A stretch of DNA of 64,000 nt. Source: Cristatella mucedo (lineage: Eukaryota; Bryozoa; Phylactolaemata; Cristatellidae). A program made the position numbers and the translations under genes. The stretch spans positions 1,992,501 through 2,056,500 of the forward strand of contig WPIO01000027.1 of the NCBI GenBank assembly GCA_009760855.2. The letters are read 5' to 3'. The notes under the pieces were generated by a model, which ran no database searches, was not told where the DNA came from, and worked only from the letters and a program-made list of their open reading frames with translations. Below, one piece after another: positions 16,701 through 60,640 of this stretch (position 1 is the first letter of the stretch; every line of letters starts with the position of its first letter).

Positions 16701-17739
16701 GTTAGGCCAATCACGAACGTTTGATTGCTCTTTTACTTAAGCGCATCTACAGCCTTTACACGTGCTGTAACACATAACGTCCTTTAGTGCTTTGAGTCAA
16801 AGTTTGAGTCAAATTCAAAGGCAGTTTTCTCTCCATCTGACCGCACTACAGAATCAGAGGCCTTCGTGTGTTGCAAAGCTGATGCCAACTAAATTTCTTT
16901 CTAGGCAAGTTCTTTCACAATCTCAATTTCTTTACATTTGCTGCTAAGGGAACCGCGATTGAATGATGAGTAATATCATGCTTGATAAACAACATGAATA
17001 ACACGCTTAGGGGTGACTTGCACAGGGTCAGCATGCAAATGTGGTTAGTGGCAGTATGCACAGTGTCAGCACGCATAAGCACATCAAGAACGAATCAAAG
17101 GGACCCACTAAATGCAGTCCTAAATAGGTGAGTTTTTAAGTTCTTTTTAAATGTGGTCAAGTCAGGGGATGTTCTGACGCAAGTCGCGAGGAAGTTCCAG
17201 GCTTTGGGAGCATACGAACAAAATGCACGGTCTCCAAAGGATTTGAGGTTTGTACGAGGTACTGGTAAACTGCTGGATTCTGAAAAGCAGATGGTACGAT
17301 GCTTGGCCTGGAGGGGTAGTAGATCTGAGAGATAGGCTGGAGCCAAATAATGAAGAGACCTAAAAGTGAGCGACAAAACCTTGAAGTCAATCCGTTGCTT
17401 GACTGGTAGCCAGTGCAGGTCGGCGAGAAGTGGTGTGATGTGGCAACTGCAACGCTCACGACAGACAAGCCTAGCTTCGGAGTTTTGCACCAGCTGTAAT
17501 CGCCTGATTGCGCATGCCGGTAGGCCAGCAAGCAGTGAGTTACAGTACTTCACTACACATTTCCCTTTGCAGCAAATGTGAAACGCCTAGAAAGAGATAG
17601 AGTTCTCTGGGGGCGCTTTATCAAGTGCATTATTATTATTATTATTATTATTATTACTAACCGAACAGAAGCACGGAGACTGAATGAGAAAGTAGAAGAC
17701 AGCAAAGGGAGTGTGAGAGAAAGGAAGAGTAAGCGCTAG

Positions 17740-34900: not shown

Positions 34901-37900
34901 CTAGACGCTGAACCTCGTGCCACAGATGTTCAATCGGGTTAAGGTCCAGGCTCTGACTAGGCCACTTAAAACGCTTGAAATGAGAACAGTCAGGAAACTG
35001 TTTTTCACTTTGATAACTTATCTGACGCTTTCAGCACCGAATTTCGTGCATTGACTGACTCATTGTCTCTTGTGGCTCATGTGCATGGCCCTACCCACAT
35101 CAAGGGTCACACATTCGACCAGATTTTCTCATATAACTGCACTTTGTCATCACCAATTATTACCAAATCATGCTTATCTGACCACATGCAGATCTCATTC
35201 AATCTACAGTGTGTGCCCACATCCTCCTCTAAAATAACCTGTGAATCGCGAAACCTCAAGACCCTTGACATCGATGCTGTCCGTGCGAGAATATCTGCTT
35301 CACCTCTGCTGCTCAATCCTCCCTCCGATCTGTCATCATTGGTAGATAGCTTCAACATGACACTAGCTGACACGCTAGACGAGTTTGCCCCTCTGACAAA
35401 GCGCACTGTGCGTCCCCGCCCAGACGGCCTATGGTTTACCGCAGACATTAAACTAGCCAAGTCTACTAAACGAAAGCTTGAAAAAGCATACAAAAGATCC
35501 GGACTAACTGTCGATCGACAGGCAAATGAAGGCTACTGTAAGTCGTACCAATCAATCCTAGCAAAGGCTAAGTCTAGTTTTTATAACAACATTGTTGAAT
35601 CACAGATGCACAATCCAAAAATGCTGATGTCGACAATAAAGCATCTCCTCAACCGTTCCCAGATTAGCTCCTTGCCTGATGATCCTAATGATGATCTAGC
35701 CGATCGCTTCTCTCGATTCTTTGTGCAGAAGATAGACAAGATCAGGGAATCCATCCCAGCGATGACAAACTCCCCACTAGAATGCTGTTCCTCGGTTCCT
35801 GGCTGCACTCAATGTCTGCATTTAAGCAGGTCACTAGTGATCTAGTCCTAAAGTTCGTATCTCAATCAAAGAAGACAACAAGACCTCTGGACCCTATTTC
35901 CACTGTCCTGCTCCTACGTTGCATTGATCTGCTGCTGCCATGCATAACTAACATAATTAATATGTCATTAGCCTCAGGTCATGTCCCAGCACCTTTCAAA
36001 AAAGCTGTAGTCAGGCCACTTCTCAAGAAAGCTACACTTGACCTAGAGAACTTGAGCAACTACCGCCCAGTTTCCCTTCTACCATTCCTATCAAAGACAC
36101 TCGAACGGGTCGTGGCGGACCAGCTGAACTTGTATATCGAAACCTCACACCTTGCTAGTAAGTTCCAGTCAGGCTTTAGAGCTAATCACTCCACAGAGTC
36201 AGCATTGCTTCGGGTATACAACGACCTACTTAGGAATGCAGACATGGGTAGAGTGTCTCTGCTTGTTTTGCTTGATCTTTCGGCAGCTTTTGATACCATC
36301 GATCACAAAGTTCTTCTAGAGCGCCTCTCATTTCACCTGGGCATCACTGGCACTGCTCTGCAGTGGTTCAGGTCCTATCTCAGTGGGAGACTCCAGAGTA
36401 TTGACGTGAATGGACAAAGATCATCTGAAGTACCTCTGAAATATGGAGTACCTCAGGGCTCAGTGCTAGGTCCGATTCTTTTCACGGTTTATACTCTGCC
36501 TCTTGCTGATGTGATTGCCAAGCACAATCTAGGCTTTCACTTCTATGCGGATGACACTCAGTTGTACCTTTGCTTTGATCCCTCCCAGCGTTCGAGCACC
36601 TCAAATTCTCTAAACTCACTAGCTGCATGCATTGATGACATCCGCACATGGATGGCAGCAAATTTTCTAAAACTTAACGATGATAAAACTAACTTACTAG
36701 TTATGGGCAAACCCAGTGTGATCCAGAGATTGGAAAGGCTGACTCTCAAAATTGGCTCTGCCAGCATATCTCCAGTTGAATCAGCTCGAAATCTAGGTGT
36801 CATATTCCAAAGCGACCTCTCGTTAGATGACCATATCAGCTCCACAGTCAAATCCGCCTATTTTCAGCTTCATAATATTGCTAAAATTCGGGCTTGTTTA
36901 GATAAAGATACCACGTCCAAGTTGGTCCATGCATTCGTGACATCCCGTCTCGACTTCTGCAACTCACTGCTTACTGGCCTACCAGCATGTGCGATCAGGC
37001 GATTGCAGCTGGTGCAAAACTCTGCAGCTAGGCTTGTCTGTCGTGAGTGCCGCAGTTGCCACATTACTCCACTTCTCGCCGATCTGCACTGGCTACCAGT
37101 CAAGCAACGGATTGACTTCAAGGTTTTGTCGCTCACTTTTAGGTCCCTTCATTCTATGGCTCCAGCCTATCTGTCAGATTTACTCCCCCATCAGGCCAAG
37201 CATCGTACCACCCGCTTTTCGGAATCCAACAGTCTAGAAATACCTCATATAAACCTTAAATCCTTTGGAGACCGTGCATTTAGTTCATATGCTCCCAAAG
37301 CCTGGAACTGCCTCCCGACCTGCATCAGAACATCCCCTGACCTGACCACATTTAAAAGGAACCTAAAAACACACTTATTTAGGACAGCATTTAGTGGGTC
37401 CCTGTGATTCGTCCTTGATGTACTTATGCGTGCTGACATTGTGCATGCTGCCACTAACGACATTTGAATGCTGACCCTGTGCATGTTCACCCCAAACCAT
37501 ATTATTCATTTTGTTTGTTTTTCAAGCATGATTTTACTTACCATTCAATTGCATTTCACTTTACAGCAAATGTAAAGCGCCTAGAGAGAGATTAAGTTCT
37601 CTGAGGGCACTTTATCAAGTGAATTATTATTATTATTATTATTATAAACTGTACCACAACTTTCGCAGTATATTTCGGATCGCTTTCCTCTTGATATATA
37701 AAATTAGTGCAGGGCAGGTCATCCAGGATTCGCAGGTAGCCGTCTTTAATCATTATGCCTTCAATGTGTTGAAGGGCTTCAACATCGTTTGCTGCGAAGC
37801 CTCCCTACACCATCACTGGTCCGGACCTGAACATCACAGTATGTTGCAAGCAGACATCGGCATATGCTTTTGTCACTCCTGGGTCGAACGCAGGATCGAC

Positions 37901-42000: not shown

Positions 42001-45000
42001 GACATCCCGGGTCGAATGTCAGCAAGGCAAGTATTAAGTTGGTCATTTGCTGCAGCAGATTCCGACGGTTTGAATGACAAATACAGATGAGCATCGTCAG
42101 CATAAAGGTGATATCCTATTCCATGGGCCTTCGTCACCTTTCCCAGAGGTTGAGTATAAATGGAGAACACCAAGGAACCAAGGACGGATCCTTGAGGGAC
42201 GCTGCAGGTGACCTGACTCGTTTGTGAGACCTGACCCCCACACGACATGGATAAACACGATCAGACAAGTTCGATTTGAACCACGCCAGTGCCTCTTCTG
42301 CCAGACCGGTCGTTGTTCTCAATCGTTCAAGTAGAATATCGTGATCAATAGTGTCGAAAGCATCAGACAGATCTAGCAGAGCTAGGGCAGTGACATTCCC
42401 GTCGTCGTTGCCACGTAGAATTTCATTGTTAACACGGAGGAGAGCAGTTTCGGTAGAGTGCTGCCTCTTGAAACCTGATTGAAATGTTTCTGACATTCCA
42501 TTATTTTCAATGTGTTCAACTAGCTGCTTAGCAACAATTTTTTCAAGAATCTTTGATAAGAAAGGAAGAAGGGAAACTGGGTAATAGTTTGCAAGGACCT
42601 CTGTATCTAATCCAGGCTTTTTTTGCACACTGCACAGTCCTGGAGAACTTCAGGAACCGGAAGACCTTAAAAATTTAAGGCTGGGTAAAGGTCATATGGC
42701 CGGCTGCTCTAGCAGCAGAAGCTGGCACAAGTTCTAGGCACACTGAGTGTGCAGACCTAGACAGCTGGTTGCTGGCCATCTTAGCTGTTTGGGACAACAG
42801 CTAGAATGACTGCCTCAAATCAACAAAAACCTGCAAGGCAAGCTCATCTGAGTGGTTAAATGCTGCTAAGCCATGTCTCTTAGCAAGTCCGGCTGAAGGA
42901 ATAAAGAAACATCACTGCTACACTTACATTTGGCTAAGCAAGAATGCCATAAAGTTGCTTTCAAAATAAGTGTGTTGCCAGCTATGACAACAACAACACA
43001 AAAAATGCTGTAATCGACCAGCTTCAGAACCCTTAGTGGTGTTTGCCATGTCCGATGAACAGGGAAGCCCTTAGTTACTCCAAGCCTGCAATCAATGCGG
43101 TTGTGATCGCTTAATTGAGCAGCTATGTACCCTCCCAAAACGGAGTAAATTCCCCCTAGCCACGACCCTCGAATAACAACTTGAACCGAGGCTGTGCATT
43201 CAACCATAGCACATTGAATTTTCATTCTCTGGTATTTGCTGCTGCAATCGCTGAGCTGAGAGCTAGTGATCTCTGTCGACAGCTTTCCATTGGCTTCAAA
43301 TTAAAGTGACTAGCACTTGGCTGTCTCTCTTTCCTGAACAACAAAGTGAAATCCAATACGACAGGCAGACGTAGGTACATGTAGGTACACGGTAGGTACA
43401 CGGCAGTACTTTCACTAGGTTCAACTTTATTAACAACCTCTACAATAAGCTAGCTTGTTCAGCTAGTGAGTCCATTACAATTACATAACACGTGTGTTAT
43501 ACTAATTATATAATCATTACTCAAGATTGTTACACAATAAAGCATTGCAATTACATGCTGTTGGCACTACCACTTATGCAATAACGTGTTATTGCACAAC
43601 GGTTATTGCATAATGACATGCTTAAGAACTTCACAGAACTATGTAAAAACAGAGTTTTCAGAGGGATGTCATAAAAGCATTCCACTAGGTTGCACTATCT
43701 GCACTATGACCTCCATTGCAATTTTAGTTCAAACCCCTTTCTTGCTTTTTCACATTCTTTGACATCTGGAAACAAATTTTTAATTAAATGGATGTTAACT
43801 ATTCAGAAAATTGAGAATATGCATTGAAGTAAACTGAGAAGAAAGAAGTTTAATTAAATGTTGTGGAATTTTAGCTAATTAATTCCTTTTTCTTTTTGTT
43901 CGGCAGAAGCAATGCTGCTTATTTCACCTGTTATTGCTGGCTTGACTGCGACATTCATAGAGCATCATGAGCAAGTCATTCGGCTTTTTCTACTTCCATT
44001 TATCGGGAATGTTGAGTGAGAGCTGTGTGATGACATTTATCACCCACAAACAGATTTGAGCCATGTGTAAGTTTAACGTTTGCACTGCTGAGCTCAGTGT
44101 TCACCAGTTTTGTCAAATTGACAGTGCACTATGTTCATTTTCCGGAAGCAGAACGGAATTTTAGCTAGATCTGCTGATTTTTTCAAAATGTTCCCGTTCT
44201 GCTTGCAAACTGAAATCTAGTCGACTCATATAATTAATGTTGAAGTGCTCGAGACCAATAAACTAAAGTCAGTGCTGACTAGCTAGCCATGCTGACCAAT
44301 GAAAAGAGAGCTTATAATTTGCACTCCAACACAGGCAATTGAAATAAGAAATTGACTTTAAAATGTGATTTAAAATTAACATCCTTTTTTGTGTGCATGC
44401 ATGCCCTGTAAACTGTGAATGATCTACAGGTTTCCATGAGCAGGACTAGTTCTATCCTTAGAAGTTCGCGAATGTGAACACTGTAACGATTTGGAGAAGC
44501 AGCTGAAGCAAGCGCAGCTTCAGCTGCTTCTCGACTATCGTTATAGTCGACCATCATCTTTGTACAGCAGATCTTGGTGAAGCAAGATCCAATGATGGAA
44601 AAAGCTGGCACAGCAACTGAGCGAGCATCGATAAGGACGAAGCAATAAGGAGTGACGCAGATAGATACCTGCAGGGCATTGACTGCACGCTGCACTCCCG
44701 TTTGCCCTGTACGATCCAGTGCCGCACGCCGTGCACGTGCTATTGTCGACGCCCAGCACGTAGCCAGCTTGGCAAATATACTGAAAGTAGAACAACATCA
44801 GTGGAGCAGCAAAGTCCTAGACACACACTCTCAGCTTTCCGGGACCGGCGTGCAGGTTAGTGCACAGAGCACAGAGTGCCCGACTTCTCGAGCTGCAGGG
44901 CAAGCTGAGCCGTTTACCCACAGATCATCTCATTCAGGCCATGTCACCAACTCTGATGCTAGTTTGTCAAATATGCAATCCAAGCAGACGGAAGTGTGAA

Positions 45001-48000: not shown

Positions 48001-51000
48001 GGCAACAGCAAGCCATGCAGGGATTGAAAGCACTCAACAGGCAGAGGAGTACCTATGGTGAGGTGAGTGCAACTTGTGTCCTGGGCAACACTTAGATAGG
48101 GTTAACCGCCATGGTACACCCAGACAGCACTGCACTGCCAGAGCCGACGACCCCAACTGAAAACGTCGGCCGTTACATGACCTGAGGCTATGGGTCTGCT
48201 TGCTACCGACTTGCCGGCTCTTCTCTGGCAGGGTGGTTCAGTTGCTGCCTACCGATTACCGTGAACTAGCATAGATCTAGTCGTGCTTTGGTTTTTGGAA
48301 AAATAAGAAAGTATAGAGACCAGAGGATCTTTCGAATGTAGTCCTCAATATTTCCATTGCTTTTCAGATCATTGCAAAACATCCTAAGTTTCCATTGCAA
48401 GCTGTGAGTTATAATTCGGTAAGTTAAACAAATAATTTCGCATTTGAGAGCCTCCGTCGGTCAAGGTAGACACTGTGATCCTGTTCTGCTGAGCAAAGAA
48501 AATTAAGAAACTTGTTAAAACCGACTTTGAGCATATCATACAGCAATTTTTCTCTGTGAAAGTAAGGAGGGTGCAGTCGCAAATTTCATTTATTGCCTTC
48601 AAATGTAGATGGGAAGACATACGAGTTTGACACGTGATAAGACAGGCAGGGTCAGACTTGTCAAAAGTCACAGGTCAGAGGTCAGATGCAGGTTAAACTG
48701 GTAAGCAGTAGCTGGCCATTGCAGCCGTCGTCTGACTTTCTCGAACGATCGACACAATCTCGTATACATAAGTACCCTGCTCTAGCCAAAGATCAATGGT
48801 GCAACCCAACGCTGGCAAGCAGGTCGAAGAGAGCCATCCTAGCAAGGAATAACCAGTGGTCATTGTGCATCGTAGTGCATAAGCCGAGGCTAACTGGTTT
48901 ACCTGATGGAGACTAATTAGCGGTTAAGGTGCTGCCCAGACCAAGGTCTGACTGAGGTCGTGGGCTTGAGCCCCGAGGCATATGTGAAGCGCCTGAATAG
49001 AGATTAAGTTCTCTTGGGGCGCTATATAAATGAATTATATTATATTATTATTAATTTTTCTGTTCGAATAGGCACCGCAAATAAAAGATGAAAATCATGC
49101 CCACGGCTTATAGAAAATATAATATAATTCATTTGTATAGTGCCCCAAGAGAACTTAATCTCTATTCAGGCGCTTCACATATGCCTCCGGGCTCGAGCCC
49201 ACGACCTCAGCCAGACCTTGGTCGGGGACTAGCACTAGCACCTTAACGACTGGACCAAACCAGCAAGCAGCATAAGCTTTCAGCTCTGCCAGTGTGGTCC
49301 GTGGCAGTGGTGATTGTGGTTTCGTACACAGCCTGGTCGAGTCCTAGTGGGCAATGAGCCTGTTATCCAGGAAGTGGGAAATCTCGGACGTAAGAGCAGT
49401 GTAGTCGGTATAATGGCTAGACAAACCAACCTGTTTGTGTAGGCCCTAAACAAGCAACCCTTATCGCCAGTGTTGTGGAGACAGGCCAGGTGCTGCAGCT
49501 TAATTACTCCACAACAAAAGCCGAACAGGCTTAGTCAAAAGATATAGAAAGGGCATACATTCCTTTTGCAAGCCACAGAATGCTAGCCGAATAAGGTTAC
49601 GGCCTTTCTGGCTGACTACCTGACTGATTGCAACCTCCACATCTTACAACACAGCACCTGCAGCCAATCACGACCTCTGCAGCTAGCCCCCAGTCCTGAA
49701 CAAGTGTCATCTTGAGGGTGGCTCAAAAACCAGCCATCAGGTAGGCAGAGGCGATCTTGCTGGCACAGTAGCAGCATCAAGTCGCGGGTAGACGACAATT
49801 TAATAAAATGTCACGTATCAGAACAGCCTACCGGTACAACCGGCACACATAAGAACAGGCCACCTTGTGCCCTACAACTATGCATGGGGTACACCACTGA
49901 TGCTACATACAGCATCACATCCGTGACCCCAAGACGACCATGCCGTCTTCGACGGACATGCTATTGGATAACAGCTACAGTGGCAACGGTAGCTGCTCTG
50001 TTTGCTAAGCAGGGGCAGTAACAGCAGCCTTGATCAGAAGGGCATGGCTAGCCTGAGGCTAGGCTGCCGCAAGCCAGCGCATGTGTGCGTGCTTGCATTA
50101 AAGTGTGTGCATGCGAGTGTGTGAGCGCCTGCTGCGTGCTGCGAACGGCAGGCATGTAGCACTCACTAATATCCTGGCATGCAGATGTGGCAGGCCGTCG
50201 TATTCGCATCGAAGTACTGGCCAGCAGTACAATTCGCAGCCGAGCACCCATCGCTACCGAGGACTCCTGCAACAAACAATTAGGTCCGGCATATGCTGAT
50301 TTGCTGACACGGCAGACACATTTTAGGCTGGCAAGACAGATCTCGCACTGCTGCTATAGCATGTTTGCCGAATCAATTCATCGCTTTAGCAGCTGGAAGG
50401 ATTCTCTTGAAACGTTGACCAACTCTAACGGAGGACTTTCTTGGGTTGTGCTGTGGAGGGCGGCGAGTGGGAAGCTACAGCTGGTGCTGAAGTCAGGCAG
50501 GGCGGGTGGCTCAGCCGGTCAGTCAGCAGGTGCCACATTCCTCCCACATTTCTGATAGCAAACAAAGGGCCGAGCTCGGCAGATTAAACAGCCTAGTTCA
50601 TGTAGCTGCAAAAAAAAGCCTTGCAGCTGCTATCACTTTGCTTACAGCAGGCAATTAAAGATTGCTTGCTGCAGATATCGAACACCCGACTTCGGTCATG
50701 AAGAGCTAGTGCCTTGCCTCTGGGCTGAGACCCGTGGTACTAGCTACCGTGCTGTAAGCCGGTCAATGGTTTGAGGCACCCTACATGACTTTAAGGACAA
50801 TCCCCAGACACTATCTCCGCTCCACTATCTCTGCTGGCCGAATTTGAGTGGTCAGGAGTACCGACTCAAGCGTACAAACAGCTTACAGTAAATGACGAGT
50901 GGACGGCTCGAACGGTCCACACCGACAGGGTGTCACTGTTAACTTCACACATTGTATGTGTATACAGATAAGGACTATATTGTAGGTGTATACAGATAGT

Positions 51001-57740: not shown

Positions 57741-58514
57741 ACCGATACTTTCGGCCGATACGCGCGTGCGTACGTGCGTCTGTGGAGCACGTACGAGTAG
57801 CTAGCCGCGCTACAAGGTTCGGGCGTCGCCAGTATTCGTCGCGCGTCGGCTGCTGAGACGTCGGCACAGCGCCGCGTTTGGTGCGAGGTCGCGACCGGAC
57901 GTGGAAGCCGCACGCCGCGTTCGTAGCAAGGACATTAGCGAGCAGCTCGGACAGTCTTGCTTGCCTGAGAGTCGCCATCGCCCAGCTGCGAGGCCTACGT
58001 CCGACGCTCCCGGTGGCTGCTCGCCAGCGAGCCGTCGAAAGTCGGGTTTAATGTCCGGCTTAAAATTCTTCGCGTCCTTCGCCGGGCCTAACAATAGCTT
58101 CGGTAATAAGAAGGGTGCGAGCAACAGAGTTGCCCGATATCGTTAGCAGACGCCGAGCTAGGATTTCCATCGTGAAAGACCCGCAAGATTTGTATGTGCT
58201 GCTAAAGACCCGTGAGTAATAAAAGTTATAGCGCACAATGGTTGCGTTTATTCGATGCCGTGTGCACCCGCTGTTTCTGTAGCAACGTGACACTAATGTA
58301 CATGCCCCACCTGTTACCAATAGTTAAGCTATCGTCGCAGCGCAGCGTCAGGCCACTAATGCAGATTATATTTCTTGACGTCTGCTGCAATCCATCAAGC
58401 TGTCACGCCTTGAAAGAGATAAAGGAGAGTCTCGTTGACCACTCGCGCCCGCGCTGCATCTCCGCGAGACTCCACGAGAACTGCCGCCGCCGGAGCCACT
58501 GTATTAGTTAAAAA

Positions 58515-59200
58515 TATTTAACTAGCTCTTTAGTTCTGTCTCGGCTTGATTATTGTAATTCTCTTTTGGCTGGGCTACCAAGGAAAGCAACTTGGCCACT
58601 GCAGCTGACTGTGAATATGGCTACAAGGCTAGTCTTCAAGACCCAGAGGTTTGACCACGTGTCTCCTTTACTGAAAGAGCTAGGATGGATGCCGATTGAT
58701 CAACGGATACAGAGCAAAGTTCTTACGCTGACCCACAAGGCTCGCCACGGCTTGGCTCCTTCGTACCTAGCTGAACTGCTGCATCAGTTTCAACCTGTTC
58801 GCGCCCTCTGGTCCTGTGTGGACAATAAATTAGCTGTCCCATTCCTCCGCTTAAAGGCCGTTGGTGATAGAAGCTTTAGCTCTGCAGGTCCTAGACTGTG
58901 GAACTCACTTCCACAATTCTTACGCAACGACAACTACTCCCCTACTGCTGACTATGGCACATCCTTTTCAGCGGTCCTGAGCTGCTACTTTCATGCTACT
59001 CACTACCTCAACTGCTCTCCTGACTCTGCTATGCTTCCCACTTTCTCTTTGTTGCATGCGACGAAGTCTGTTGGCTACCGAATGCGTACCGAAAGCCGCT
59101 TAGGCTGTGAGTTCGCTATACAAAACTCTCCTGTGTAACACCCACTTGGTCTTGATGACTTTGTGGAGTTACAGACGGAGATACATTACATTACATTGCA
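58515..59200 (+). mobile_element. LINE B 3' copy with open RT C-terminus
   Basis: 190 open codons (GLPRKATWPLQLTVNMATRL through CEFAIQNSPV), then the shared ttacagacggagatacatta end. It is the best-preserved LINE B C-terminus in the window. Confidence 0.88.
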
Positions 59201-59617: not shown

Positions 59618-59625
59618 GTCTAGGA
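59618..59625. repeat. Left 8-bp target-site duplication of hAT element
   Basis: gtctagga, identical to 59811-59818. Confidence 0.9.
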
Positions 59626-59810
59626 CAGCGGTTCTCAACCTGTAGGTCGCGACCCCTTTGGGGGTCGAAAGATCCAGTCATAAGAGGTTGCCTAGACCAT
59701 CGGCAAGCGCGAATTTTTCACACAATAATTTTATGGTTGGGGGTCACCACAGCAACAGAGGAACTGCTTTTAAGGGTCACGGCATTAGGAAAGTTGAGAA
59801 CCGCTCACTG
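59626..59810 (+). mobile_element. SPIN-like nonautonomous hAT element (185 bp)
   Basis: It starts cagcggttctcaacctgtag and ends gttgagaaccgctcactg, giving inverted termini. Inside are tcgcgacccctttgggggtc, ttttatggttgggggtcacc and gggtcacggcattaggaaag. From memory these blocks match the terminal parts of SPIN/OposCharlie-type hAT elements of vertebrates very closely. It is flanked by perfect 8-bp duplications, the hAT hallmark. Confidence 0.85.
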
Positions 59811-59818
59811 GTCTAGGA
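59811..59818. repeat. Right 8-bp target-site duplication of hAT element
   Basis: gtctagga, identical to 59618-59625. Confidence 0.9.
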
Positions 59819-60640
59819 GGAGCCGAGACCACCTCTCGGGCATATAGTTGCCTGGCAGCTTTAGCGCTCACTGTGAATGTTGAGCTCACAGCTTTAGCGC
59901 GACTGTTGAGAGCAGTCGACATAGCGAGCGGCAAGAAAATGAGAGGCCATTTTCATAGCACTGTACCCTAGAGTAGGCGGACCCACTGACATTCGATATG
60001 TCGGGCTGGGCGTCGCCTTGCCCCGGAAGGGTAAAGCCTGTGGGTCAGCTCCCAGAGTTCCGAGGACGGGAACTGGGTACAATGTGCTCGCTCTCTTTCG
60101 GCGGAAGCTCTCGACGATGTTGGACGTCCGCTCCGTCTACCACAGAGTACTCAGCTAGCCGGGTCTTGGACGGCGTATGCTTGTACTGGTGAGACGGAGT
60201 CCTGCGACGGTGCGACTGTGGAAGCCGACTGAGCACTAACACGTTTGTTCGCGCTTGCGGCGTCATCCCGTGCCCCTGTAGTTTACCTTGTATAGGAACT
60301 TCCTCTGTAGGCTTGTTTAGTGCCCTCCTTTGTATAGCGCATGCGTGTGTATTATATAAAGTGTTGTGTACCCGATTGATCACGCGTGAACCACTGTTAC
60401 CGAAGGGCCCAGCGTAACGACCCAGAACGGACATAGATAGTAGCGAGCCATAGTGGGAGTTGGCCGCTGGCCCATTGAACTCGGTTACAGCACTGAACCT
60501 TTCCAGATCTTCTGCCCCTCCGCAAGGAGGGGGTGGGGGATGCGTTTGTTGAGGCATTGCGGCTCACGGCTCTTTCCCATGGTAATCGGCTGCCCAAGTG
60601 CTTGCTACATTCAAGCCACCGACTGAAGGCTTTACTTTGA
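59819..60640. other. Unassigned upstream stretch
   Basis: It holds a TATA-like tattatataaag near 60350 (plus) and a purine-rich run near 60522-60540, both seen in LTR elements, but no LTR pair was found. A 170-codon minus open frame has low-complexity content and no motif. Confidence 0.35.

Follow-up and report, generated by a model that had tools for sequence, protein, structure and literature searches.

The window, that is, the whole 64-kb stretch of DNA analysed here (C199:1992501-2056500 of a 572-Mb genome in 688 contigs), contains one SPIN-family copy. The earlier note had described a 185-bp element between perfect 8-bp duplications GTCTAGGA, and direct reading of positions 59626-59810 and their flanks bore this out. 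The element begins with CAGCGGTTCTCAACC at 59626 and ends with GTTGAGAACCGCTCACTG at 59810. Its inverted arms are 13 bp long and perfect (59627-59639 and 59793-59805). The features of the locus are the following:

59618..59625, plus strand: left copy of the target site duplication GTCTAGGA, of the nnnTAnnn type; read directly, with the length and TA centre the same across 40 copies
59626..59810, plus strand: 185-bp non-autonomous hAT element of the SPIN family, a degraded member of a 187-bp MITE family; from the sequence and the genome copies
59626..59641, plus strand: left terminal inverted repeat CAGCGGTTCTCAACCT; from the sequence and the family consensus
59791..59810, plus strand: right terminal inverted repeat, in which 4 bp are inserted compared with the family consensus AGGTTGAGAACCACTG
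59811..59818, plus strand: right copy of the target site duplication GTCTAGGA; read directly

A 12-bp direct repeat CAGCTTTAGCGC occurs twice just outside the right duplication (59856-59867 and 59889-59900). Three LINE pieces, which we take to be L2/CR1-like, lie at 35695-37407, 42134-42649 and 58512-59138. The first two match RVT_1 (E 2.3e-32 and 7.6e-14, respectively), and the third has no Pfam match. The minus strand of 1794-28796 contains many exon-like frames with cysteine-rich CPPGYFCP repeats and one sub-threshold match to Ephrin_rec_like (E 0.00032); perhaps these frames belong to one large multi-exon gene. No Rfam match at gathering scores was observed anywhere in the window.

A search of the same genome with the element produced at least 39 further matches with 79-82% identity, 40 of 1789 candidates having been scored. 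The window copy and these 39 matches, fetched with their flanks, were used to derive a family consensus. The consensus is 187 bp long, and 23 of the 40 copies have exactly this length. SPIN-type terminal inverted repeats are present, and the consensus ends are CAGCGGTTCTCAACCT and AGGTTGAGAACCACTG. A 27-mer from the left end, with up to two mismatches allowed, occurs at 909 places genome-wide (464 + 445), and its reversed control at none. The earlier note had proposed counting the copies in the genome; these left ends correspond to a family of about 900 or more dispersed copies.

The two 8-bp flanks are identical in 10 of the 40 copies, differ at one position in 18 and at two or more positions in 12. 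When flanks were paired across different copies as a control, there were no full matches among 1560 pairs, and 19 pairs had one mismatch. Since at most one mismatch is observed in 28 of 40 copies compared with these 19 of 1560 control pairs, the target site duplication is real. The target is centred on TA: T is found at the fourth position in 31 left and 36 right flanks of the 40, and A at the fifth position in 36 and 35, respectively. A preference for nnnTAnnn targets is a trait of the Buster group of hAT elements.

The mean distance to the consensus is 6.4% for all 40 copies of this first sample. The window copy is unusually strongly decayed for this family: it lies 16.2% from the consensus, compared with an average of about 6% for the other 39, has lost 8 bp internally and has gained a 2-bp insertion and, in its right terminal repeat, another of 4 bp. 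The pairwise distance among the other 39 copies is 11.4% against an expected 12.4%, twice the distance to the consensus, and thus the divergence is star-like. Differences at CpG positions are about twice as frequent as at positions elsewhere (93/854 against 357/6409). The star-like divergence together with the CpG excess fits a single burst followed by neutral decay.

A second sample was formed by 40 new places with an exact left end, taken from 100 listed of the 909 and read with about 3.7 kb of downstream sequence. The right end is recognisable in 34 of them and absent in 6, and duplications with at most one mismatch are seen in 20 of the 40. One of these copies (L063) is 509 bp long, has a perfect duplication and contains a longer right part. 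A 23-mer from this right part occurs at 70 places (33 + 37; control 0), of which 12 were read, L063 among them. Six of eight fetched right-part places are complete elements of 309-331 bp, the 319-bp class, with duplications having zero to two mismatches. Another complete copy (L099; 352 bp, perfect duplication) has a different middle. In L098 no left end was found, even with extra upstream sequence. The longest copy (L107, 919 bp) has flanks that differ at three of eight bases, and no transposase was recognised in it by eye. The region L108, considered as one long element, was rejected, as it consists of two SPIN copies 2.6 kb apart. The forms of 187, about 319, 509 and 919 bp have both ends in common, and thus the family forms a graded series of internally deleted elements. 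The left and right parts differ from the consensus by 5.6% and 5.3% in the first 39 copies, by 6.2% and 8.0% in the other 39 copies, from the second sample, and by 8.5% and 9.8% in 12 longer copies; these differences do not prove separate ages, because the copies of the first sample were chosen for resembling the window copy and those of the others for having exact motifs.

Vertebrate comparison DNA was located by searching papers for 15-17-letter strings of the element. Six printed pieces were considered, each assessed against 2000 shuffles. The Kcnq1ot1 primers (PMC3447949 and PMC6221546) we take to be from mouse, and the FDH piece, on our own reading, to be an intron. A mouse origin of the printed DNA is stated in PMC2767504 and PMC8376875. 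Two Ate1 primers match the consensus at 18 of 19 bases from base 1 and at 18 of 20 bases at 56-75. Two Kcnq1ot1 primers match at all 18 bases at 62-79 and all 16 bases at 144-159. The piece of the mouse FDH gene matches at 67 of 80 positions at 107-187, up to the exact right terminus. In each of these five cases none of the 2000 shuffles reached the score. The sixth piece, another Kcnq1ot1 primer, matches at 15 of 20 bases, a score also reached by 184 of the 2000 shuffles and so not above chance. Thus five of the six pieces match the consensus with 84-100% identity and cover its positions 1-19, 56-79 and 107-187. Compared with the window copy itself, the same six pieces match more weakly, 0, 3, 26, 1, 146 and 0 of 2000 shuffles reaching the score. 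The likeness to SPIN that the earlier note had called striking is therefore confirmed for the ends and blocks of the family consensus, and is less marked in the copy for which it was claimed.

The terminal repeats, the 8-bp nnnTAnnn duplication and the block similarity to the printed mouse pieces all support the identification of the family as SPIN. Murine rodents are among the mammals invaded by SPIN 15-46 million years ago, according to the review PMC5857283. One alternative is that the element belongs to a different hAT family that has only conserved terminal motifs in common with SPIN and no recent common source with it. Ends can indeed be conserved by selection for transposase binding, and no host transposase was found that could be compared with that of SPIN. 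However, whole blocks match beyond the 15-bp termini, at 67 of 80 and 18 of 20 positions in the printed mouse DNA. Moreover, a putative vertebrate SPIN sequence, which we treat as a lead and not a test, agrees with the 319-bp class at 85 of 85 bases on the left and at 95.7% of 141 columns on the right, including an internal stretch missing from the short form. A different hAT family thus seems improbable, and the assignment to SPIN is retained. The same putative sequence is 79.1% identical to the 187-bp consensus, with 38 gap columns, and 68.7% identical to the window copy, the middles differing in both cases.

Exact patterns from the family were also compared with public sequence. The left-end pattern had no matches in viral contigs, the right-part pattern none in genome contigs, and the internal pattern none in either. 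A blastn search produced no match in phages and two 25-bp stretches in plasmids at E 7, the level of chance.

Candidate transposase partners were considered next to these non-coding copies. The hAT dimerisation domain PF05699 has at least 138 matches in the genome (150 of 766 candidates scored), and PF14291 at least 46 (150 of 237 candidates scored). None of these 184 domain matches is found less than 14 kb from any of the 70 places with the right part, and among the candidates scored there was no autonomous SPIN. A total of 62 of the 138 PF05699 places score at least 73.5 bits; most of them are identical, with open frames from 148 aa upward, and one is situated on the same contig as the window (C199:1846474). 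Probably these 62 places represent a BED zinc finger hAT, apparently a single uniform young family, recently active and separate from SPIN. A 640-aa open frame with BED and dimerisation domains was read at C110:3941100-3943900 (L104). This young BED-type hAT was rejected as the SPIN partner because no SPIN ends were found in the 2.8 kb read around the frame of this one copy. Two decayed hATs with both PF14291 and PF05699 (L105, L106) were rejected as well, as their flanks were read and contain no SPIN ends.

For each of 78 copies, the two flanks were joined and aligned with the window and with all sequence fetched. A site was recognised as unoccupied if the alignment extended at least 40 bp beyond the junction in both directions with E <= 1e-6. 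Unoccupied paralogous sites were found for nine of the 78 copies, with no gaps at the junction in five, one in three and six in one. Five of the nine best unoccupied paralogues are situated in the 64-kb window:

58810..58983, plus strand: empty site for copy L023 (contig C645), 80.5% identity over 174 columns, spanning the junction with a single target-site copy
35829..35980, plus strand: empty site for copy L047, 79.4% identity
36353..36525, minus strand: empty site for copy L092, 68.8% identity, the weakest of the five
17057..17182, plus strand: empty site for the 330-bp copy L101, 81.0% identity, one gap at the junction
49112..49207, plus strand: empty site for copy L013, 81.4% identity, six gap columns near the junction

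As the unoccupied paralogues occur in the same assembly, these are insertions in the host's own repeats. Copies of L2/CR1-like repeats such as those of the window served as empty sites. For the window copy itself, no unoccupied paralogue was observed among the fetched loci.

These observations bear on the suspicion, raised in the earlier note, that the contig might be vertebrate or chimeric. The contig or the whole assembly could in principle represent vertebrate contamination or a chimera, so that the SPIN copy would not truly be from an invertebrate, and SPIN is indeed best known from vertebrates. Against this, the left ends are dispersed over 909 places of the assembly, 38 of the 39 first-fetched copies are on contigs longer than 1 Mb, and nine of 78 copies sit in host repeats with empty versions in the same assembly, five of them inside the window. 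In addition, a contig with SPIN copies (C166) contains a 96-97% copy of mitochondrial DNA that uses genetic code 5. The genome-wide dispersal and the empty sites inside the window refute contamination or a chimeric contig, which we consider very improbable.

The mitochondrial genes are on contig C688 (21,008 bp). At conserved positions of COX1, read by eye, ATA corresponds to methionine, AGR to serine and AAA to lysine, that is, code 5; on inspection of the COX1 translations by eye, codes 2, 4, 9 and 13 were rejected. The protein genes, named by eye, follow one another on one strand as cox3, atp6, cox1, nad3, nad1, nad6, cob, nad4L, nad4 and nad5, with rrnL on the opposite strand; inspection by eye did not reveal cox2, atp8 or nad2. 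Direct and inverted repeats of 1.8-2.1 kb flank the nad1-nad5 block (L053-L055). The layout reflects either a rearrangement of the genome or a flip in the assembly. A nuclear copy of this mitochondrial DNA (L049, C166:4375626-4376390 and around) extends over at least 3.7 kb with 96-97% identity and lacks about 0.5 kb internally. The 5.6-Mb contig C166 also has SPIN copies, and this ties the mitochondrial and nuclear genomes together. Thus the invertebrate host suggested in the earlier note holds, given the invertebrate-type code, read by eye, and the nuclear copy of C688 DNA on a SPIN-bearing contig. A further COX1-like stretch with stops (L050, C83, 3121-3735), 74.6% identical to the mitochondrial contig, is either an old nuclear copy or comes from another organism.

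PMC3285623 reports the block cob-nad4L-nad4-nad5 from entoprocts and phoronids as well as from some molluscs and two ectoprocts. The A+T content of C688 is 55.5%, close to the 57-59% of the articulate brachiopods compared, but Sipunculus has 54.2% and Nautilus 59.6%. The brachiopod Terebratulina retusa itself was rejected as the host, as the strand skews of its mitochondrial DNA differ from those of C688. The molluscan haemocyanin domain PF14830 had no matches in the host genome, which does not show its absence. The host is probably a lophotrochozoan.

Taken together, these data are very probably explained by a SPIN hAT derivative of the miniature, non-coding MITE type, which presumably arrived by horizontal transfer. 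The hAT elements move by a cut-and-paste pathway. A SPIN transposase encoded elsewhere would bind the common ends, excise the element and insert it at a target centred on TA. A copy with an internal deletion may then have been amplified in a single burst, and the transposase source could since have been lost, have decayed or have been missed. Horizontal transfer, not descent, would have brought the family into the invertebrate lineage, because the non-coding blocks still match mammalian copies with 84-100% identity in the printed mouse pieces, and the putative vertebrate SPIN sequence is closer still. Inheritance of SPIN by descent since vertebrates and protostomes had a common ancestor is hardly conceivable. 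We saw no point in its support; under neutral decay, unconstrained non-coding DNA would not keep 84-100% identity for more than 500 million years, and the copies are already 5-10% from their own consensus.

One possibility, which we put forward tentatively and regard as rather doubtful, is that SPIN entered a phylum of Lophotrochozoa outside the molluscs, in a host without a blood-feeding link to vertebrates, and was active long enough to produce several size classes. The best guess for this phylum would be brachiopods, from the mitochondrial base composition and gene block. If this is true, such lophotrochozoans would be a candidate reservoir of SPIN and not merely an end point. SPIN is among the clearest cases of DNA passing between distant animal lineages, and parasites and their hosts have been proposed as its carriers. 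Each further invertebrate host tests this idea, and should the present host turn out to be something other than a parasite or a snail, a different route of transfer is needed. With about 1,000 copies and the unoccupied sites, the age of the family can be estimated and compared with the 15-46 million years that PMC5857283 gives for mammals.

The family may be compared with several known systems. The non-autonomous SPIN (Space Invaders) elements of tetrapods, including the murine copies, have the same terminal repeats and the same left and right blocks as the elements described here. Vertebrate SPIN elements also make 8-bp target duplications and have MITE-like non-coding forms, as here. The middle differs from that of tetrapod SPIN, the commonest form read here is 187 bp, along with forms of 319, 509 and 919 bp, and the host is an invertebrate. 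PMC3621081 describes OposCharlie1 (OC1), which the earlier note had named beside SPIN, as a hAT family that moved horizontally among vertebrates and Rhodnius; the match to SPIN makes identity with OC1 less likely. In the assassin bug Rhodnius prolixus, SPIN is represented by SPIN_NA_12_RP and SPIN_NA_13_RP (PMC11614815). Likened by description only, Rhodnius is an insect feeding on vertebrate blood, whereas the present host has a lophotrochozoan-like mitochondrial gene block. The snail Biomphalaria glabrata has about 1,000 copies of a SPIN-like hAT, with no intact transposases detected according to PMC5440852. Here too the likeness is by description: the copy number is of similar order, and both hosts are probably lophotrochozoans. 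Thus SPIN in invertebrates is already in print, as PMC11614815 and PMC5440852 attest, and the present host would extend this list and not open it.
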